Shown: positions 3,585 through 62,412 of the stretch, one piece after another
Layout of the letters: each line of letters begins with the position of its first letter
How positions within the stretch are numbered: the first letter of the stretch is position 1
NCBI GenBank assembly: GCA_021325515.1
Contig: JAJPHC010000060.1
Coordinates: 62,001 to 126,000, forward strand
From: Acidobacteriota bacterium
GTDB lineage: Bacteria > Acidobacteriota > Thermoanaerobaculia > Gp7-AA8
Reading direction: 5' to 3'
Length of the DNA: 64,000 nt
Notes under the pieces: generated by a model
Seen by the model: the letters and a program-made list of their open reading frames with translations, nothing else
Database searches by the model: none
What the model was told of the DNA's origin: nothing
Program-made: the position numbers and the translations under genes

Positions 3585-4013
3585 ATGGGAGAACCGATCA
3601 CGATTCGCAGTGGCGCATCGTTCCGCACGGAGATCGTCGCGGGTGTACACACGATCATCGCCGACGAGCCGAAGTCAGCCGGAGGCAATGATGAAGGTCC
3701 GACCCCGTACGACCTTCTCGCCTCCGCACTCGGCTCCTGCACGGCGATGACACTCCACTTCTACGCAAAGCGCGAGCGCATCCCGCTGGAAGGCGTCGAG
3801 GCGGTCATCACGAACGATCGGATGCACGCCAAAGACTGCGCCGACTGCGCGACGACAACCGGCTACATCCACCGCTTCGACGTAACGCTGAGGCTGCTCG
3901 GCAATCTCTCTCCCGAACAGCGGACCGCGCTCCTCGGAATCGCCCGCCGCTGCCCCGTCTACAAGACCCTCACCTCGGAAATCAGGATCGAAGAGCGAAG
4001 CGCGGAAGAGTGA
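3585..4013 (+). CDS. OsmC/Ohr-family peroxidase-like protein
   Basis: At 142 residues this is the usual length for OsmC/Ohr proteins, thiol-dependent peroxidases acting on organic hydroperoxides. Both expected cysteines are present: one in LASALGSCTAMTL and one in RRCPVYKTL. Acidic KDCADC-type sequence lies between them, as in the YhfA/OsmC-like branch. Its start follows the lipoprotein stop by 3 bp. The TGA stop falls inside the first GAAGAGTGA unit of the repeat that follows, so the very C-terminus (AEE) may be repeat-derived. Confidence 0.9.
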   Translation: MGEPITIRSGASFRTEIVAGVHTIIADEPKSAGGNDEGPTPYDLLASALGSCTAMTLHFYAKRERIPLEGVEAVITNDRMHAKDCADCATTTGYIHRFDVTLRLLGNLSPEQRTALLGIARRCPVYKTLTSEIRIEERSAEE

Positions 4014-21878: not shown

Positions 21879-23062
21879 AGCCCTGCCAGCCGCCCGCTCG
21901 CCCACGCCCACTGAAAGTTGTACCCCCCGATCTTTCCGTCGACATCGAGAATCTCGCCGCAGAGGAAGAGGCCCGCGCACACTCGCGACTCCATCGTCGC
22001 GAGATTCACCTCGGACAGCGGCACCCCGCCGGCCGTCACCTCCGCGTAGTCGAAGCCGCGGTCGCCTGTCACCGGCAGCGGCAGCTCGACGACACTGCGG
22101 ATGATCCGCCGCCGCTCCTCCCTCGTCAGCTTCCCGATCGCGCCGCCGCCGATCGCTTCTGCCAGCCGCTCCGGCAGCCCCTTGCGATGGAGAAAATTCG
22201 GCACCGTCATGTGCGCGTTCGCCGCGAGCAGTTCCCGCTCCAGCGACTCGAACGTCTCATCGGGCAGCAGGTTCGCGTGCAGGAGAGGCGCCCCCGCCTG
22301 TCCGCGCTGCGCAACCCAGTGCCGGCTCATGTCGAGCACCACCGGGCCGCTGAGTCCGAAGTGCGTGAAGAGCATCGAGCCGCGCTCGCGGTGATTCGTG
22401 CCGCGCAGAATCAGCTCGGCCTCGACGCTCGTCCCGCTCAAGGCCGTCAGCCAGTGATCGCGCTCGAGGATGAGCGGCACGAGCGCCGGAAAGAGCGGCG
22501 TCGTGGTGTGCCCGAGGGATCGGGCGAGGAGATAGCCGTGGCCGTCGCTGCCGGTTTTGGGTACCGAGCGTCCGCCGGTCGCGAGAATCAGCCGGTTCGC
22601 GCGCAGCTCTCCATTGATGACGAATCCGCGCTCGATCGTCTCGACGCGATAGCCGCACCGCACCTCGACACCCGCATCGCGCACCGCGCCGACCAGCGCA
22701 TCGAGCACGGTCGACGCGCGATCGGTGACGGGGAAGAGCTTGCCCGTCTCTTCGCGCTTGAGCACGACGCCCAGCGACCGGAAGAACTCGATCGTCGCCG
22801 GCACATCGAACGTCCGCAGCACTTTCGCGATCGCGTTGCGATTGCCGTTGTAGTCGCGTGCGTGTACGGCGTCATGCGTGACATTGCAGCGGCCGCCGCC
22901 GGAGATCAGGATTTTCGCGCCGATCCTCTTTGCTCCTTCGAGCAGCAGCACGCGCGCCCCGCGCCGCGCCGCGAAAAGCGCCGCCATGAGCCCGGCCGCC
23001 CCTGCCCCGCACACAACGACATCGAATGTTTGTCGCTTCGTCACGCCACTCACATTTACCAT
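21788..23062 (-). CDS. BaiN/HI0933-like flavoprotein, repeat-extended C-terminus
   Basis: The 424-residue protein has an N-terminal FAD Rossmann motif (VVVCGAGAAGLMAALFAARR) and the family signature KILISGGGRCNVTH. The late FAD-contact region is GGVPLSEVNLATMESR and GEILDVDGKIGGYN. Function in this family is mostly unknown; some members are flavin-dependent reductases. After the natural end (WASGRLAG) about 31 residues of GTDGTDG-type sequence come from a 9-bp repeat. It diverges from the PIG-L gene with 8 bp between starts. Confidence 0.88.
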   Translation of the reverse strand: MVNVSGVTKRQTFDVVVCGAGAAGLMAALFAARRGARVLLLEGAKRIGAKILISGGGRCNVTHDAVHARDYNGNRNAIAKVLRTFDVPATIEFFRSLGVVLKREETGKLFPVTDRASTVLDALVGAVRDAGVEVRCGYRVETIERGFVINGELRANRLILATGGRSVPKTGSDGHGYLLARSLGHTTTPLFPALVPLILERDHWLTALSGTSVEAELILRGTNHRERGSMLFTHFGLSGPVVLDMSRHWVAQRGQAGAPLLHANLLPDETFESLERELLAANAHMTVPNFLHRKGLPERLAEAIGGGAIGKLTREERRRIIRSVVELPLPVTGDRGFDYAEVTAGGVPLSEVNLATMESRVCAGLFLCGEILDVDGKIGGYNFQWAWASGRLAGLDGTNGTDGTDGTDGKNGTDGTDGTDRTDG

Positions 23063-37254: not shown

Positions 37255-39735
37255 ATGTTGCGAGGAAACTTCGCCGCCTTCATTGCCGAGCGCCATCCCT
37301 TCGCGTTTCGCGCCGCCGTCACTGCACTGGAACAGGCCATCGGCACTTCCCCGTTCGACGAGCGCGACGGGTTCGCCATCGACGCTCTCCGCGGGCCGCT
37401 TCGCGCCGCGCTGGAACAGCATCTCAGCGAGACGATCGTGCCGGCCGCGCCGATCCAGGATCGCGTTCCGGAAACGACGCCGGGCATCTCGCTCAACCAT
37501 CGGCTGCACCAGGCCGTCATCGAAGTGATCGAGGACTGCGACGGATTTCTCCGCCGCGCCGCGATCGCCGCATCGCTTTCGAAGGAAGAGAAGCGCGAGA
37601 TCCTGCGCGGCATGCTGTTGACGCGCGCGACCGACAATCGCCTCAAACAGTTCTTCGCCGGCGGCGAGGTTCGCTACGGCAGCGCATCCTTCCAGGGCAA
37701 AGGCTTCCGCTCCCTCGGTCAGGAAGCGATCTATGCGGCGGCGATCCGCCTCCGCCGCGGGCCCGGCGGCGACGTCATCTCGCCGATGATCCGCGACCTC
37801 GGCGCCGTGCTCGCCATGCACAACAGCCGCGACACCGTCCGCATGGTCCTCAGCGCGCAGATGGCAAAGGCCGGCCCGCCGATGAACGGGAAGGATCTGC
37901 ACGTCGGCGACTGGGAGCACGGCATCCTCCCCGCGATGGCGCCCCTCGGCTCGCCCGCGCTGACGATCGCCGGCATCGCGATGGCGTTCGCGCTCGACAG
38001 AAGCGATCGCGTCGCCGTCACCTTCGTCGGCGAAGGAGCGACGTCGCTCGGCGAGTGGCACGAAGCGATCAACGCCTGCGCCGCGCGCAAGCTGCCGGCA
38101 ATCTTCTGCGTGCAGAACAACCAGACCGCGCTCTCGACGCCGGTGCCCGAGCAGTCATCGGTGCGCGTATTCGCCGACAAAGCGCTCGGCTACGGCATCC
38201 CTGCCGTCACGATCGACGGAACCGATCCCGAAGCGATTGCTGCAGCGTTTGGTTGGGCCGCGGAGCGGGCACGCACCGGACTCGGCCCCGCACTCATCGA
38301 GCTCGTCGCGATGCGCATGTGCGGCCACGCCCATCATGACGACATGCTCTATCTCGGCAAGGATCCGCAGCCGTCGTGGACGTATCCGCAGCTCACCGAG
38401 AACGGCTACGCGAACCGCGAGCTCTACGAGCTCTGGGCGGAGCGCGATCCGATCACGACGTATGCCGCGAAGCTCGAGTGGGATGGAGTGCTGGCCGAGG
38501 AAGAGCTCGAGGCGTGGAAGCGGGAGATCGAGGCGCTGGTCGAGGAAGAGGCGCGCAAGGTGATCGAGGCGCCGTGGCCGGAGGGAGAGCTCGCGGGTGA
38601 GGGTGTGCTTGCGGATGAGCCGCGGCGGCGGCGCATCGAAGTGCTCGATGAGGAGTGGCGACGGAGACAGGCGCTGCAAGGACAGGCGGGGGCGCCCCAT
38701 GGACAGGCGGGGGCGCCTGTCCTACATGTTGAGGATGCGCCGCCGTTTGATCCGAAGGGGCGGACGTTTCTCGATGCGGTGATGCTCGGCGTCGGCGATG
38801 TGCTGCGCAGCGATCCGCGTGCGTTCGTCTACGGCGAGGATGTGGGCGGGAGCTACGGGAATGCGTTCCTGCTGCTCAAGCCGCTGTTGAAGGATTTCGG
38901 CGATCGCATCATCAACTCGATTCTGAGCGAGTCGGCGACGGTCGGTGTGTGCATCGGCGCAGCGCTGATGGGCCGGCGTCCGATCGGAGAGATTCAGTTC
39001 AACGATTTCATCGCGACAGGCTTCAACCCGCTGGTGAACAGCGCGGCGAAGATTCGCTATCGCTGGGGCGGTTCCGTGCCGATGGTGCTGCGCCTGCCGT
39101 GGGGCGGCCTGCGGCATGCGGGGCCGTATCACTCGCAGAACACCGAGGCGTGGTTCTATCGCGTGCCGGGTCTGAAGATCGTGGCGCCGTCGACGCCGCA
39201 TGACGCGCGCGCGCTGATGTCGAGCGCGGCGGCGGATCCCGATCCGGTGCTCTACTACGAGCACATCGCCCTCTATCGCGATCCGCGCGTGAAGCAGTTG
39301 TTGTCCGATGATGCGCCGGCGCCGCTGCCGATCGGCCGTGCGGCGCTGCGCCGCGATGGGAATGATCTCGCGATCATCTCCTACGGCGCCTACGTGCACG
39401 TCGCCATGCGCGTCGCGGGAAGACTCGCCCAATCGGGCATCGAGGCCGCGGTGCTCGATCTCCGCTCGCTGATGCCGCTCGACCGCGAGGCGATTCTCGC
39501 TCTAACCAGACGTTGCAACCGCGTCCTGATCGTACACGAGGACACGCGGACGGGGTCGATCGGCGAGTCGATCGCTGCGGTCATTCAGGAGGAAGCATTC
39601 GAGTTTCTCGACGCGCCCGTGCGCATCATCGGTGCGCTCGATACGCCCGTCCCGTACTCGCCGCCGCTGGAAGAGGTGTTCCTGCCGAATGAGGAACAGA
39701 TCGAGCGGGCCGCGCGGCTGCTGATGGCGTACTAG
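37255..39735 (+). CDS. Fused E1 alpha/beta 2-oxoacid dehydrogenase
   Basis: The 826-residue protein joins both E1 subunits of a thiamine-diphosphate dehydrogenase. After a ~110-residue N-terminal extension, the alpha part has the cofactor motif GEGATSLGEWHEA…QNN (about 262-292). The beta part starts near residue 495 with FLDAVMLGVGDVLRSDPRAF and YGEDVGG. It should decarboxylate pyruvate or a branched 2-oxoacid for an E2 partner, but no E2 or E3 gene is nearby. The alpha–beta linker (about 476-490) is encoded by a REP-like repeat. Confidence 0.9.
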   Translation: MLRGNFAAFIAERHPFAFRAAVTALEQAIGTSPFDERDGFAIDALRGPLRAALEQHLSETIVPAAPIQDRVPETTPGISLNHRLHQAVIEVIEDCDGFLRRAAIAASLSKEEKREILRGMLLTRATDNRLKQFFAGGEVRYGSASFQGKGFRSLGQEAIYAAAIRLRRGPGGDVISPMIRDLGAVLAMHNSRDTVRMVLSAQMAKAGPPMNGKDLHVGDWEHGILPAMAPLGSPALTIAGIAMAFALDRSDRVAVTFVGEGATSLGEWHEAINACAARKLPAIFCVQNNQTALSTPVPEQSSVRVFADKALGYGIPAVTIDGTDPEAIAAAFGWAAERARTGLGPALIELVAMRMCGHAHHDDMLYLGKDPQPSWTYPQLTENGYANRELYELWAERDPITTYAAKLEWDGVLAEEELEAWKREIEALVEEEARKVIEAPWPEGELAGEGVLADEPRRRRIEVLDEEWRRRQALQGQAGAPHGQAGAPVLHVEDAPPFDPKGRTFLDAVMLGVGDVLRSDPRAFVYGEDVGGSYGNAFLLLKPLLKDFGDRIINSILSESATVGVCIGAALMGRRPIGEIQFNDFIATGFNPLVNSAAKIRYRWGGSVPMVLRLPWGGLRHAGPYHSQNTEAWFYRVPGLKIVAPSTPHDARALMSSAAADPDPVLYYEHIALYRDPRVKQLLSDDAPAPLPIGRAALRRDGNDLAIISYGAYVHVAMRVAGRLAQSGIEAAVLDLRSLMPLDREAILALTRRCNRVLIVHEDTRTGSIGESIAAVIQEEAFEFLDAPVRIIGALDTPVPYSPPLEEVFLPNEEQIERAARLLMAY
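38680..38725. repeat. REP-like element inside the E1 fusion gene
   Basis: On the minus strand it reads GTAGGACAGGCGCCCCCGCC followed by a near-copy without GTAG. GGACAGGCGGGGGCG occurs twice on the plus strand. It is read in frame as GQAGAPHGQAGAPVLH between the two enzyme halves. The same GTAGGACAGGCGCC head occurs at 55517. Confidence 0.85.
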
Positions 39736-52766: not shown

Positions 52767-53104
52767 GTCCGATCCCATTTCGTTGGTTGATGGAATGGGA
52801 CGGATGGGACGGATGGGACGGATAGGACCGATGGGACCAATGGGTGGAGGTTCTCCCTATAGGTCCCATAGGTCCCATAGGTCCCATAGGTCGTCCCATT
52901 TCGCTGGTGATGGGATGGGACGGATGGGACGGATAGGACCGATGGGACCAATGGGTGGAGGTTCTCCCCATAGGTCCCATAGGTCCCATAGGTCCCATAG
53001 GTCCCATTTCGCTGGTGATGGGAATGAGACGGCTCCCCATCGGTCCCATCCGTCCCATCCGTCCCATCCGTCCCATCCGTCCCATAGGTCCCATCCCTCC
53101 CATT
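52700..53104. repeat. 9-bp-period hairpin array (GGGACGGAT family), copy 3
   Basis: At least three hairpins lie in tandem. Each has GGGACGGAT-type left units, the apex AATGGGTGGAGGTTCTCC and CATAGGTCC-type right units. They are separated by a shared spacer, CCCATTTCGCTGGTGATGGG, giving a ~110-120-bp higher-order repeat. The first hairpin (52700-52768) supplies the protease tail and TAG stop. Together with coding overlap this fills the 365-bp gap. Confidence 0.92.
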
Positions 53105-53131
53105 GTCCTATCATCGTTCCCCGACTCCACC

Positions 53132-56100
53132 ATGAACCTCGGCATTGACAACTTCACTTACTCCGACCTCTACGACTACGACCGCCTGACGGCGCTCGCG
53201 ACGTCGTTCGACGAATTCGTGAAGGAGCGCGATGACGCGCTCTTTGCGCGCTTTGCCGCCTATCGCGCGAATCCCGATTCGCTGACGCCGCCGCAGGAGT
53301 CGGAACTGCTCATCGCGATGAGCCGCGAGCTGGCGACGTTCCTCTGCCAGCTCTTTCCGGTCGATGGCGGCCCCGCGCAACTGCATCAGCGCGCGCAGCG
53401 CGATGCGCAGGTCGCGCGATTCAAGAAGGAGTTCGTGCAGAAGCGCGTCGCGAAAGTCGCATCGCCGGGCGCGGTCTCTGAGGAGATGGTCTCCGCGCTG
53501 ATCCACACGATCGCCGGAGGCGAAGCCGATCGCGATCCCGAGCTCGCACTCGCCTGCACCGCGAATCGCCTCCTCGATCTCGAGCGCGAATATCCGCGCG
53601 GCGCGAAGGCCGCAACACCGTCGATCGAAACGCGCACGCAACTCGTGCAGCTTCGCGACTCGCTCCGCGCGACGCAGGCCTTCGAAGAATCGCTCGTGCG
53701 GCACGAGCCGGTGGAATCGCCGGAAGCGATCGCGCGCGAAACGGCCGCGCTGCATGCGCTCTCCGACATGCTCCTCGACTGGACCGCAGCGCAATGGAAG
53801 ACCGGCCGCTTCGAGGGCTGGACGTCCTTTCACCTCCCGAAAACGCTCGTGTTCGACCGCCTCGTCGACACGAAACAGATCGACGAGCTCCGCGTTGCCG
53901 GCAACGAGAAGCACTACCGCCGCCGCGATGGATTCAAGCTCACCGATCCGCGCGCCACGCCGCGCATGATCGCGGATCAGGCGCACTACTGCATCTACTG
54001 CCACGAGCGGACCAAGGACTCGTGCTCACACGGCTTCCCGGAAAAGAACGGCACGTTCAAGCCGAACCCGCTCGGGCTCGCGCTCGAAGGCTGCCCGCTC
54101 GACGAGAAGATCGGCGAGATGAACGCGCTCCGGGCCGAGGGCGAGTCGATCGCCGGCCTGGCGATCGTGATGATCGACAACCCGATGTGCCCCGGCACCG
54201 GACATCGCATCTGCAACGACTGCATGAAGGCCTGCATCTTTCAGAAGCAGGATCCCGTCGACATTCCGCAGATCGAGACCGGCGTGCTCACCGACGTTCT
54301 CTGGATGCCGTGGGGCTTCGAGATCTACTCGCTGCTGACGCGCTGGAACCCCATCAACGTGCGGCGCCCGATCGCACTGCCCTACAACGGCAGGAACGTG
54401 CTCGTTGTCGGGCTCGGCCCGGCGGGATACACCCTCGCGCATTACCTTGCGAACGAAGGCTTCGGTGTCGTGGCGATCGATGGGCTCAAGATCGAGCCGC
54501 TGCCCGAGGAGATGACAGGCGGGGACGGCTGTCCTGCGCCGATCGTCGATGCGAAGAAATTGTGGGACCCGCTCGACGATCGCATCCTCGCCGGATTCGG
54601 CGGTGTGTCCGAGTACGGCATCACCGTTCGCTGGGACAAGAATTTCCTGAAGATCATCCGCATCGCGCTCGAGCGGAAGAAGAATGTGAAGATCTACGGC
54701 GGCGTGCGCTTCGGCGGCACGATCACCATCGAAGACGCCTTCGACCGCCTCGGATTCGATCACATCGCGATCGCCGCGGGCGCGGGCACACCGACGATCG
54801 TCCGGATGAAGAACAACCTCATTCGAGGCATCCGCAAGGCGAGCGATTTCCTGATGGCGTTGCAGCTCACCGGCGCATTCAAGAAGACGTCGATGGCGAA
54901 TCTGCAGGTGCGGCTGCCGGCCGTGGTGATCGGCGGCGGGCTCACCGCGATCGATACCGCTACGGAGCTCTTCGCGTATTACCCGGTGCAGGTCGAGAAG
55001 ATCCTCGAGCGTTACGAAAAACTCGGCGAAGAACTGCGCGCCGGGTATGACAGGGAAGAGCTGCAGATCCTCGACGAGTTCCTCGAGCACGGGCGTGCGG
55101 TGCGCGCCGAGCGCGAGCGCGCGGCGGCTGCCGGAGAGAAGCCGGATTTCATTCCGCTGGTTCGCTCGTGGGGCGGCGTCACGATCGCCTATCGCAAGTC
55201 GCTGCTCGATTCGCCCGCCTATCGCCTCAATCACGAAGAGGTGATCAAGGCCTTCGAAGAAGGGATCGCGTACGCCGAGTCCCTCGCGCCGGTCGAAGCA
55301 GTCGCCGACGAATTCGGGCACGTGCAGTCGGTGCTGTTCGAAAAGCAGGTCGTGGAAGACGGCCGCTGGCAGGACAGTGGTCAAGTGGTTGACCTTCCCG
55401 CCCGCTGCGTGATGGTCGCCGCCGGCACGAGCCCGAACGTCATCTACGAGAAGGAACATCCCGGCACATTCAAGCTCGACAAGTGGAAGCAGTTCTTCCA
55501 GTCACACGAGGTCCGTGTAGGACAGGCGCCCGCGCCTGTCCCGGGCGCTTCGACAGGCGAGGGCGCTGCGACAGGCGAGGGCGCCTGTCGTACACCGGAG
55601 ATCATCGAAGTCGAAGATCCGGCACGCGACAACGGGTTCTTTACGTCGTATCAACATCCGTCGCGGCCGGACAAGCTGATCTCGTTCTACGGCGACAACC
55701 ATCCGAAGTACGCCGGCAACGTCGTGAAAGCGATGGCCTCGGCGAAGAAGGGCTATCCCTATGTCGTCTCGCTCTTCGACAAGCTCGAACGGGCGGACGA
55801 AGCCAGATGGCACGAGCTCGTACGAACGCTCGATAACGGCCTCGTCGCGCGCGTGCACGAGGTGAATCGCCTCACGCCGACCATCGTCGAAGTCGTCGTG
55901 CGCGCGCCGATCGCCGCGCGGCATTTCGAGCCGGGACAGTTCTTCCGCCTTCAAAACTTCGAGCAGCATGCGAAGGAAGTCGGCGGCACGAAGCTCGTGA
56001 TGGAAGGCATCGCACTCACGGGAGCGTGGACCGATCCCGAGCGCGGACTGCTGTCGATGATCATTCTCGAGATGGGCGGCTCGTCGAGATTGTGCGCGAT

Positions 56101-56794
56101 GCTGCAGCCGGGCGAGCCCGTCGTCGTGATGGGTCCAACCGGCGCGCCGACGGAAATCCCGAAGAACGAGACGGTGCTGCTCGCCGGCGGCGGCCTCGGC
56201 AACGCAGTTCTCTTCTCGATTGCAAAAGCGCTCAAAGAAAACGGCTGCCGCGTCGTCTACTTCGCCGGCTACAAGAAGGCGGCCGATGTGTTCAAGCGCG
56301 ACGAGATCGAAGCCGGCACCGATCAGGTGATCTGGTCCGTCGATGCGGGCGAGCCGATTGAACCGCGGCGAGAACAGGATCGTAAGTTCACCGGCAACAT
56401 CGTGCAGTCGATGCTGACCTATGCGACGTCTGCCGATCGCATGTTCGACTTCAAGGACGTCAAGCGCATCATCGCGATCGGTTCCGACGGCATGATGCGC
56501 GCGGTGAAGGAAGCGCGGCATGGCGTGCTCGCCGGCTATCTCGATCCCGAGCACGCCGGCATCGGGTCGATCAACTCGCCGATGCAGTGCATGATGAAGC
56601 AGGTCTGCGCGCAGTGCCTGCAGCGCCACGTCGATCCGAAGACGGGGAAGGAGACATTCATCTTCTCCTGCTTCAATCAGGACCAGCATCTCGATGAGGT
56701 CGACTTCGTGAATCTGCGCGCGCGCTTACGGCAGAACACGGTCGTGGAGAAACTGACGAATGCGTGGCTGACTCGGCTGCTGGCGCACTCCTGA
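53132..56794 (+). CDS. Giant FAD/Fe-S oxidoreductase, GltD–NfnA-like fusion
   Basis: This 1220-residue protein starts at the ATG at 53132, after the repeat array. It has an unrecognised N-terminal part (1-280). A Cys-rich block (CIYC near 288, PMCPGTGHRICNDCMKAC near 353) follows, then two Rossmann folds as in GltD (VLVVGLGPAGYTLAHYL ~423; VIGGGLTAIDTATELF ~597). A ferredoxin-reductase-like domain starts ~904 with a C-terminal 2Fe-2S-type CMMKQVCAQC…C. It may be an NfnAB-like or electron-transfer oxidoreductase. A REP-like repeat encodes residues ~796-821. Confidence 0.85.
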   Translation: MNLGIDNFTYSDLYDYDRLTALATSFDEFVKERDDALFARFAAYRANPDSLTPPQESELLIAMSRELATFLCQLFPVDGGPAQLHQRAQRDAQVARFKKEFVQKRVAKVASPGAVSEEMVSALIHTIAGGEADRDPELALACTANRLLDLEREYPRGAKAATPSIETRTQLVQLRDSLRATQAFEESLVRHEPVESPEAIARETAALHALSDMLLDWTAAQWKTGRFEGWTSFHLPKTLVFDRLVDTKQIDELRVAGNEKHYRRRDGFKLTDPRATPRMIADQAHYCIYCHERTKDSCSHGFPEKNGTFKPNPLGLALEGCPLDEKIGEMNALRAEGESIAGLAIVMIDNPMCPGTGHRICNDCMKACIFQKQDPVDIPQIETGVLTDVLWMPWGFEIYSLLTRWNPINVRRPIALPYNGRNVLVVGLGPAGYTLAHYLANEGFGVVAIDGLKIEPLPEEMTGGDGCPAPIVDAKKLWDPLDDRILAGFGGVSEYGITVRWDKNFLKIIRIALERKKNVKIYGGVRFGGTITIEDAFDRLGFDHIAIAAGAGTPTIVRMKNNLIRGIRKASDFLMALQLTGAFKKTSMANLQVRLPAVVIGGGLTAIDTATELFAYYPVQVEKILERYEKLGEELRAGYDREELQILDEFLEHGRAVRAERERAAAAGEKPDFIPLVRSWGGVTIAYRKSLLDSPAYRLNHEEVIKAFEEGIAYAESLAPVEAVADEFGHVQSVLFEKQVVEDGRWQDSGQVVDLPARCVMVAAGTSPNVIYEKEHPGTFKLDKWKQFFQSHEVRVGQAPAPVPGASTGEGAATGEGACRTPEIIEVEDPARDNGFFTSYQHPSRPDKLISFYGDNHPKYAGNVVKAMASAKKGYPYVVSLFDKLERADEARWHELVRTLDNGLVARVHEVNRLTPTIVEVVVRAPIAARHFEPGQFFRLQNFEQHAKEVGGTKLVMEGIALTGAWTDPERGLLSMIILEMGGSSRLCAMLQPGEPVVVMGPTGAPTEIPKNETVLLAGGGLGNAVLFSIAKALKENGCRVVYFAGYKKAADVFKRDEIEAGTDQVIWSVDAGEPIEPRREQDRKFTGNIVQSMLTYATSADRMFDFKDVKRIIAIGSDGMMRAVKEARHGVLAGYLDPEHAGIGSINSPMQCMMKQVCAQCLQRHVDPKTGKETFIFSCFNQDQHLDEVDFVNLRARLRQNTVVEKLTNAWLTRLLAHS
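55517..55593. repeat. REP-like element inside the oxidoreductase gene
   Basis: It opens GTAGGACAGGCGCCCGCGCC and closes GGCGCCTGTCGTAC, so the ends are inverted with GTAG/GTAC tips. In between CGACAGGCGAGGGCGC occurs twice. It is translated in frame as GQAPAPVPGASTGEGAATGE and onward. Related to 38680-38725. Confidence 0.85.
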
Positions 56795-59943: not shown

Positions 59944-60012
59944 ATCGCACGCCGGAGGCGTGCCTCCTTCAGAACATTAGCCACGGGTAGCGCCAGAGGC
60001 GCTACCCGTGGC
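59944..60012. repeat. Left REP doublet flanking the RAYT
   Basis: Two hairpins: outer GCACGCC-GGA-GGCGTGC (59947-59963) and inner GCCACGGGTAGCGCC-AGA-GGCGCTACCCGTGGC (59980-60012, split here for reading). Read on the minus strand the unit matches the right copy across about 65 bp. Confidence 0.9.
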
Positions 60013-60029: not shown

Positions 60030-60476
60030 TCACCACAAATACCGCTCGTCGAACACGATCCCATGTTCAACGATGAGCGAGCGATATTCATCCTTGTAGG
60101 TGAAGGCTCTGTGGTGCTCCTGCTGCGTGCGAATGTACGCACGCAGCGCATCCATGCGATACGCGCTCACGGAAAACGCGCCATATCCAACCTGCCACTC
60201 GAAACTCGGCATGCTCAACGCGTCATGCACCCACAACGAGCTTGCACGCTTGATTTCGCGAAGGAAGCCGGCAATGCAATGAGTGGCCTTCAACCCGACC
60301 AGCATGTGAACCTGATCGTGGACTCCACCGATCTCCAACGGAACACCACCACATCGCCGCGTGGATTCGGCGAGGGTTGCGTGTAATCGTTCCTGCCATG
60401 AAGGTGCGATGAACGGCTCGCGATCCTTCGTGCTGAAGATCAGGTGATAGGTGAGATTCGTGTGCGTCGATGGCAT
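60030..60476 (-). CDS. REP-associated tyrosine transposase (RAYT, Y1/IS200-like)
   Basis: From the ATG at 60474-60476 it has 148 residues: HLIFSTKDREPFI near the start, the HUH pair as GGVHDQVHMLVGL, and WQVGYGAFSVS with the Tyr that attacks DNA. EHHRAFTYKDEY follows, as in RAYTs. RAYTs process REP hairpins as single-stranded DNA. The longer upstream frame (12 extra residues) is less likely. It is flanked by inverted REP doublets and appears complete. Confidence 0.9.
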   Translation of the reverse strand: MPSTHTNLTYHLIFSTKDREPFIAPSWQERLHATLAESTRRCGGVPLEIGGVHDQVHMLVGLKATHCIAGFLREIKRASSLWVHDALSMPSFEWQVGYGAFSVSAYRMDALRAYIRTQQEHHRAFTYKDEYRSLIVEHGIVFDERYLW

Positions 60477-60547
60477 GAAGGAACGTTCCCTCGGACTGCG
60501 CCAACAACGCAAATTTTCTACGTGAGGTAGAACGTTCAGCGACCGGT

Positions 60548-60610
60548 GGTAGCGCCTCCGGCGCTACCATCGGCTAATCTCAAGATGGTGGCACGCCTCC
60601 CGGCGTGCGT
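60548..60610. repeat. Right REP doublet flanking the RAYT
   Basis: Inner hairpin GGTAGCGCC-TCC-GGCGCTACC (60548-60568) and outer GCACGCC-TCCC-GGCGTGC (60591-60608), linked by a segment with GGCTAAT. The order mirrors the left copy. It ends one base before the stop of the CoA-binding gene. Confidence 0.9.
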
Positions 60611-61047: not shown

Positions 61048-62412
61048 TCAACGCAGAGCGTCGAAATACGCAACGAGCTTCGGCGAGAACACCGTCTTGT
61101 CGAGCCTGAGGTCATGCCTGAGCTTGAGCGCCGCGCGGAAATCGTCGCTGGCGGACGCGAGCAGAGCGTCGGGCTTCTTCGACAGCATGCCGCGCGTGTA
61201 GCGCGCGCAGCCGCGCAAGGCGTAGGCCTGCGCATCGGGCTTCGAGCCGAGCACCTTCGTCAGCAGCGATTCCGCCGTCTCCAGATCGCCGGTGGCATAC
61301 GCGCGAAACGCGAGCTCCAGGTCGGCGCGCGCATCGCGAGGTGGTGCAGCGGCTTGTTGGGCCGCCGGCTTCGCCGCCAGCTCCTTCCGAGCCTTCTCCA
61401 ACTGCGCTGCGAGCTCGCGATCCTTGATCGCAACCTGATCGGCGACGCGGCGGATCTCATCGTCCTTCGGCTTGTCGGCCAGACGATGATCGAGCTGATA
61501 CGTCTCCTGCAGTGCGTTATGCAGATACGACTGCAGTGCTGCGCTTCCAGAGATGCTGTTCGCCTCCAACAGGTGCCGGCGATACATCTGCAGCGACACG
61601 CGCGCGCCCACCAGCGCTTCACTTTCGACGACGATCGGCACGGGTGCCGGTGCAGGCGCCGGCGCGGCCGTCTGCGTGGCCACCGGCGCGGGAGGCGGAA
61701 GCGGCACCTTTTTCTCGGCGACGGTCGCCGTCACCGGTTGCGGCTTCGGCACCGTCACCGAAGGCTTCGCGCTTTTCGCCTTCTTCGCTTCGTCGGCGGC
61801 GGAGATGAACATCTCGCGCGCCTGCGCCGCGGTCTCCGAGGCGCGCTTGTACGCGCCGATGTTCGTCCCCGCGTGGTTGAACTGGTCGAGCGCCTCCTGC
61901 AGTTTCTGCTTCGCGCCCCGATAGCTCTCGCTGCGGTCGCCCCCTGCGGCCACGGCTTCCATCTGTCCCGACAGCGCGTGGCTGATCGCGGCATCCGCCG
62001 CTTTCCTGCTGTCGGCCGCCAGCGCTTCGGCGTCGCGCTTTTTCTGCGCCTGGGCACGCGCGACCCACTCGCGCAATTGCGCGTAGTACTGCGTCGACTG
62101 TACGACGCCCTGTTCCTCCGACATCTTGAACTCGCGCAGCGAGCCGTCGATGTCGCCGAGGTTGTAGCGGGCGATGCCGAGCCAGAAATGCGGAACGTAG
62201 GTGATGATCTCGTTCTTCGCCCGCGCCGCACCGTTCTCGTTCGGCATCTCACTAACCGCGCGTTGCAGCTCATCGACACCGGTCTGATAGTTGTGCGCAC
62301 GGACGGCAGCGACGCCGCGGTTGTAGGCATCCCACCATTTGTCGCTCGCCGCGAACAGCGAAACGACAGACAGGAGACAGCAGAGCGCAGGGATCAGCCG
62401 GCGCCGGATCAT
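61048..62412 (-). CDS. Secreted helical/TPR-like protein partnered with a kinase
   Basis: This 454-residue protein has a signal-like N-terminus (MIRRRLIPALCCLLSVVSLF). TPR-like helices (~25-95), a charged coiled region, a Pro/Ala-rich linker (~205-245) and a C-terminal helical domain follow. Its ATG overlaps the kinase stop (ATGA), so it is translated with it. It could be a scaffold or substrate of the kinase; that is inference. The signal codons show weak 7-bp periodicity. Confidence 0.8.
   Translation of the reverse strand: MIRRRLIPALCCLLSVVSLFAASDKWWDAYNRGVAAVRAHNYQTGVDELQRAVSEMPNENGAARAKNEIITYVPHFWLGIARYNLGDIDGSLREFKMSEEQGVVQSTQYYAQLREWVARAQAQKKRDAEALAADSRKAADAAISHALSGQMEAVAAGGDRSESYRGAKQKLQEALDQFNHAGTNIGAYKRASETAAQAREMFISAADEAKKAKSAKPSVTVPKPQPVTATVAEKKVPLPPPAPVATQTAAPAPAPAPVPIVVESEALVGARVSLQMYRRHLLEANSISGSAALQSYLHNALQETYQLDHRLADKPKDDEIRRVADQVAIKDRELAAQLEKARKELAAKPAAQQAAAPPRDARADLELAFRAYATGDLETAESLLTKVLGSKPDAQAYALRGCARYTRGMLSKKPDALLASASDDFRAALKLRHDLRLDKTVFSPKLVAYFDALR

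Follow-up and report, generated by a model that had tools for sequence, protein, structure and literature searches.

In-frame GTAG REP elements in protein genes of a Thermoanaerobaculia genome: a biased reading phase and mostly linker positions

Introduction

How does a repeat that is usually regarded as extragenic come to lie, in frame and without a stop, inside the gene of a central metabolic enzyme? The question is raised by a stretch of 64,000 nucleotides (hereafter the window; positions 62,001 to 126,000 of contig JAJPHC010000060.1, assembly GCA_021325515.1) from an Acidobacteriota bacterium of the lineage Thermoanaerobaculia, whose genome is called G000 in the comparisons below. A preliminary description of the window had placed a GTAG-headed REP at 38680-38725, translated as part of the linker that joins the alpha half to the beta half in a fused 2-oxoacid dehydrogenase E1. 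In this work we have followed the element from its own locus to the rest of its genome and to the related genomes of its family, looking at its copy number, its likely mobiliser, the phase in which it is read and the protein positions where it is found.

The REP element of the E1 linker

The fused E1 (Table 1) shows the Pfam domains E1_dh (residues 152-442), Transket_pyr (507-674) and Transketolase_C (694-816), and has 1um9, 1w85 and 3duf as relatives in the PDB. The region 38680-38726 reads in frame as GQAGAPHGQAGAPVLH, which corresponds to residues 476-491 of 826 and includes the REP-derived stretch GQAGAPHGQAGAP; both the presence of a GTAG REP and its stop-free reading in the linker were correctly recognised in the preliminary description. 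Its extent, on the other hand, had to be redrawn, since there is not one palindrome of 46 bp but a complete REP preceded by a truncated unit. The complete unit has the palindromic core GGACAGGCGGGGGCGCCTGTCC at 38701-38722, followed by TACA, and on the plus strand encodes GQAGAPVLH (with the next base). Its head lies on the minus strand (GTAGGACAGGCG, 38714-38725) with the GTAG unpaired, as in the GTAG super-family of REPs. When folded as RNA, positions 38697-38727 form a 9-bp stem with a 4-nt loop (-19.0 kcal/mol, z -4.3), a stability matched by none of 200 shuffles and a geometry within the 5-13 bp stem and 2-20 nt loop of that super-family. REPs in the strict sense are extragenic, and the E1 copy is intragenic. 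An AlphaFold model of the protein, built with 30 sequences, has a mean pLDDT of 80 and, counting segments of at least three residues, falls below 50 only at 475-485 and 618-629, the former overlapping the REP-encoded residues.

Table 1. Coordinates of the fused E1 gene, the second REP-carrying gene of the window, their REP units and the candidate RAYT gene (window positions unless a contig is given)
Feature	Position	Strand	Basis
Fused 2-oxoacid dehydrogenase E1 (alpha + beta), 826 aa	37255..39735	+	ORF; Pfam; PDB relatives
Truncated REP unit GGACAGGCGGGGGCGCC, encoding GQAGAP (with next base)	38680..38696	+	direct sequence reading
CCAT spacer between truncated unit and complete REP	38697-38700	+	direct sequence reading
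Complete GTAG REP, TGTAGGACAGG... head on minus strand	38701..38726	-	pattern match, fold, direct reading
Pyr_redox_2 domain protein, 1279 aa, second window gene with a translated REP	52955..56794	+	ORF; Pfam
Intact REP core in the 52955 gene, phase 0, VGQAPAPV	55520..55541	+	core match; translation
Degenerate REP unit in the 52955 gene, phase 1, TGEGAC	55569..55590	+	core match; translation
153-aa RAYT candidate	contig C11, locus L123, 3714-4175	-	Pfam Y1_Tnp; PDB 4er8 (TnpArep), E 8e-7

A dispersed family and its candidate transposase

The E1 element is one member of a family dispersed through the genome. Allowing up to three mismatches, the core was matched seven times in the window (two sites match on both strands; 100 shuffles gave a mean of 0) and 94 times forward and 90 times reverse in the whole genome, where the reversed control pattern gave 1 and 0; the exact 22-nt core occurs at 25 places. 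A search with the palindromic frame GGACAGGC-N2-10-GCCTGTCC found 118 places in the genome, the many dispersed copies that characterise the GTAG super-family, together with 101 in the related genome G016, 73 in G013 and 35 in G003, 0-5 in each of the remaining 14 of the 18 family genomes, and 0 for the reversed control. The occurrence of the element at other loci, which the preliminary description had proposed to look for, is in this way established. The units are 22-26 bp long and differ in their loops from one genome to another, being of the GCGNGGGCGC type in the genome of the window and mainly GCTTTCCAGC among the copies listed for G016 and G013. Besides the 22-nt core, the genome of the window has a rarer 21-nt core (37 places, counted by its inner 19 bases). 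TACA directly follows 73 of 86 cores, and a half unit precedes the full core in 8 of the 86, at a spacing of 18-37 nt. In the window we also noticed a degenerate copy on the minus strand (22282-22303) with one mismatch and without the GTAG head.

The genome gave seven matches to the Y1 transposase family. One of them, the RAYT candidate of Table 1, is flanked by the same REPs: one abuts its stop codon, the TAG of which overlaps the REP head, and two more lie in opposite orientation on the far side (the three REPs are at 3693, 4233 and 4270). The locus is therefore a REPtron, and, to judge from this arrangement, the REPs were most likely moved by this RAYT. The window itself holds another tyrosine (Y1) transposase on the minus strand (60030-60512), bounded by imperfect inverted repeats of 53 nt (59954-60006 and 60548-60600), each with a GGTAGCGCC..GGCGCTACC hairpin. 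It was considered as mobiliser and discarded, given that its flanking repeats differ from the REPs; it resembles the TIR-flanked transposases described for Acidobacteria by Di Nocera et al. (2013, PMC3733652).

In-frame copies and their reading phase

A strict census covered 94 clusters, comprising the 114 copies with enough flank (vs the 118 places of the palindromic frame). Seventeen clusters (20 copies) lie in frame inside ORFs scored as coding, whereas 21 have coding sequence of the same strand on both sides but no frame open through the element, 14 are found between opposite strands, 33 have coding sequence on one side only and 9 have none next to them. The E1 case, with these copies predicted to be translated in frame, is not singular in its own genome. 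The initial remark that REPs are normally extragenic holds as a tendency, but neither these 17 clusters nor the intragenic REPs published in 2013 (PMC3733652) allow to take it as a rule.

All 20 in-frame copies of the strict census are read in phase 0, where the codons (GGA CAG GCG ...) contain neither stop nor cysteine and give peptides of the general form G-Q-A-x-x-P-V, either GQAPxPV, when the REP head is in the sense strand, or GQAGxPV and similar. Two phases are stop-free with GTAG in sense and three otherwise; taking stop-free phases as equally likely and clusters as independent, the probability that all of the clusters (12 + 5) would be in phase 0 is about 1e-6. Selection after insertion would explain this bias, because, with the head in sense, reading in another phase introduces a stop or cysteines, although a target-site preference of the transposase could be an alternative source. 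By core length, no copy with the 21-nt core, for which no phase yields a bland peptide throughout, is in frame (0/24), against 20 of 90 with the 22-nt core (Fisher p 0.007). In a looser census, 23 of 97 copies were in frame, distributed over 20 genes, and 22 of them were in phase 0; the single exception is in an ORF that has no Pfam match and ends 19 aa further on.

The picture is less strict elsewhere. In G016, G003 and G013, 18 of the 70 clusters lie in frame and phase 0 is used by 17 of the 25 in-frame copies, the copies examined in G016 and G013 being the subset found with a search pattern that included the head. When 17 of the 18 in-frame proteins of these genomes were scanned (the eighteenth is the E1 of G016), 12 had Pfam support: nine with phase-0 copies, among them DNA polymerase III alpha, an M1 peptidase and two aminotransferases, and three with phase-2 copies, namely an AlkZ-like glycosylase, a PMT_2 protein and a P-type ATPase that also has one phase-0 copy. 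Given these phase-2 copies, as well as the phase-1 degenerate units that accompany the intact phase-0 copy in the second gene of the window (Table 1), phase 0 is a bias and not an absolute rule, strongest in the genome of the window and softer in its relatives.

Host proteins and position of the inserts

Pfam supports 17 of the 20 genes of the looser census, a set of unrelated proteins that recalls the in-frame insertions of Rickettsia: the E1 fusion, a SucA/KGD-like protein, E2, PFOR, PheT, a transaldolase-PGI, DsbD, a penicillin-binding protein, an M28 peptidase with PDZ, UvrA, Obg, ArgH, a CCG/4Fe-4S protein, a 4Fe-4S protein, a polysaccharide deacetylase, the Pyr_redox_2 protein of the window and a protein with Big_5 and CarboxypepD_reg. 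For 15 of the 17, the REP segment has its midpoint outside any Pfam domain, where 8.1 would be expected from domain coverage (P 2e-4; only the best stretches over the Pfam cut-off were used as domains), the two exceptions being ArgH and the CCG/4Fe-4S protein. In the transaldolase-PGI the REP is a clean insert of 7 aa, GQAPSPV, absent from 17 of 17 relatives, and in ArgH, E2 and UvrA it occupies a stretch that varies among relatives. The ArgH site is occupied by VGAAFRPPGGLKPAA in G003 and by a long insert containing HPLPAGEG in G012, repeat-like by eye; other repeat-like peptides were seen, also by eye, at the UvrA site of G003 and G016. The PFOR gene (locus L118, 853-4491, minus strand) offers a peculiar case, with tandem half units of about 18 nt (GQAWAP repeated) followed by a last full REP in frame.

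The E1 linker among relatives

Homologues of the E1 were found in all 18 family genomes, own included, and the linker could be resolved in 17 of them: one has the insert described here, one, G016, has a different REP, and the other 15 have neither. The linker residues are consequently no ordinary conserved feature of the enzyme; conservation in homologues lacking the palindrome, the outcome that the preliminary description had named as a refutation, does not occur, and the only other carrier has a palindrome as well. In G016 the REP stands at the same place and in the same phase, as a perfect palindrome of its own, GTAGGACAGGCAGGAATGCCTGTCCTAC, encoding VGQAGMPVLH.

The E1 linker could have been hit once or twice. 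A single ancestral insertion, homogenised later with the REP variant of each genome, would agree with the identical phase and junction (LH|VE) of G000 and G016, and the poor resolution of the E1 tree does not formally exclude it. Nonetheless, G017, a congener of G016, has an E1 linker without REP, each of the two carriers has the variant of its own genome, and in a tree built without the linker the two sequences stand apart, grouping in only 2% of the bootstrap trees. We consider a single origin possible but doubtful; two insertions seem likelier, but are not proven because most inner forks of the tree are weak.

Other repeats may have reached the same linker. Among distant genomes, where the linker pattern parsed 51 of 80 E1 loci, linkers hold peptides such as VRLKVDTT...VVSGLSRT and NAEHAEHAEHAEHAKK, judged repeat-like by eye, and the alpha–beta linker gives the impression of a landing site open in general to repeats that would be translated. 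Peptides of this kind (VRLKxDxT..SGFS or SGLS, NAEHAEHAEHAEHAKK, NGSALSAASAVVSG; by eye) were noted at loci L147, L152, L153, L170 and L173. A second site of the E1, near residue 250, shows other in-frame palindromic iterations in G003, G007, G008, G009 and G013 (loci L058, L054, L053, L059 and L055, respectively), for example GGGAGTCGGGAGTCGG ... CCCCGACTCCCG, with at least three kinds by eye.

Discussion

We think it highly probable that the translated copies are the survivors of a REP family spread by a RAYT, that is, those insertions that kept the frame, offered a bland Gly/Ala/Pro phase and fell in linkers or loops. According to this model, a GTAG REP family would have multiplied in this Thermoanaerobaculia genome, most likely moved by its RAYT, and one copy would have been inserted where the alpha half of the E1 meets the beta half. 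This insertion may have survived because its net length kept the frame, its phase had neither stop nor cysteine and the site was a flexible linker able to tolerate a stretch rich in Gly, Ala and Pro. The peptide would have no function of its own beyond that of a linker and is probably harmless, and the same filter of frame, phase and position may lie behind the other translated copies.

Several other readings have been weighed against this one. A chance palindrome, or low-complexity Ala/Pro linker DNA resembling a REP, might be suspected in a high-GC genome and for a peptide so similar to ordinary linkers; copy number refutes it (184 matches within three mismatches vs 1 of the control, besides the exact cores), as does the majority of copies that are not in frame in genes, which leaves it a practically negligible probability. 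That the hairpin acts in the mRNA, through pausing, stability or polarity, with the peptide as a by-product, would suit its stable fold; a purely RNA role, however, would favour no phase, the hairpin being identical in any of them, and would not prefer inter-domain positions, both at odds with what is seen, so we hold this reading very unlikely. The peptide might instead be functional, kept for a better length or flexibility of the linkers of multi-domain enzymes and particularly of 2-oxoacid dehydrogenase complexes, whose natural linkers are rich in Ala and Pro. Inter-domain stretches with a REP in the E1 fusion, E2 and the SucA/KGD-like protein, all of 2-oxoacid dehydrogenase type, and in PFOR speak in its favour, as does the shared position of the REP in the E1 linkers of two genera; against it, most E1 homologues do without any insert and the carriers are functionally mixed (UvrA, ArgH, PheT, DsbD and the penicillin-binding protein are among them), and we regard it as unlikely. 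Somewhat bolder is the idea that the REP has been shaped, with its 22-nt core and phase 0, as a dual-purpose element that provides a bland G-Q-A-x-x-P-V linker in either orientation and repeatedly colonises inter-domain linkers of essential enzymes, alongside other palindromic families at the same permissive sites, a proposal that we find rather improbable.

With survival after RAYT-driven spread as the preferred explanation, REPs that are usually treated as extragenic would regularly become protein sequence in this Acidobacteriota lineage, core enzymes included, the surviving copies being read in one phase and placed mostly in linkers. Such copies would constitute a natural experiment on the protein positions that tolerate insertions, and they also carry a warning for annotation, where GQAxxPV stretches should be taken as repeat-derived and not as conserved motifs.

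Comparison with known systems

Intragenic GTAG REPs, and the idea that linkers accommodate them, are already known since 2013. In the text covered of Di Nocera et al. (PMC3733652), GTAG REPs are reported from the ORFs of several species, Opitutus terrae having the most of them, and their targets include uvrA and DNA polymerase genes; a REP can lend its TAG stop to a neighbouring ORF, and flexible linkers or loops are suggested by the authors to render the insertions neutral. As far as that text goes, the family described here shares with the GTAG super-family the GTAG tag, the short stem-loop, the high copy number, the association with a RAYT and the copies in ORFs, uvrA included, but differs in its host, a member of Thermoanaerobaculia, whereas Acidobacteria are named there for TIR-flanked transposases only. 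The text covered, its supplementary peptide list aside, contains neither the single-phase bias nor the domain test. Among the papers listed in our literature search we found no report of translated REPs in Thermoanaerobaculia or of a single-phase bias (again leaving that list aside), nor of permissive sites that are used repeatedly in this lineage; a search with the encoded peptides and the core gave no peptide match among the matches listed, only matches to the DNA word. It is the bias in phase, together with the landing sites that are shared, that deserves to be followed.

A second precedent comes from subclass 2.4 of the tnpAREP genes, where in-frame REP insertions between protein motifs are described in the part of PMC6006769 considered here; those REPs sit in the transposase genes themselves, in contrast with the housekeeping enzymes of this study. 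Finally, an older precedent is found in the palindromic elements of Rickettsia (Ogata et al. 2000, 2002), which, as they are presented in the portions covered of PMC10969869 and PMC3733652, are repeats that lie in frame within genes of unrelated proteins, where they are translated, just as our REPs appear to be. The likeness ends with the elements themselves: those of Rickettsia are either CGTC-tagged or about 150 bp long, the CGTC repeats having no transposase, whereas the present ones are tagged by GTAG, measure 22-26 bp and are accompanied by a RAYT.
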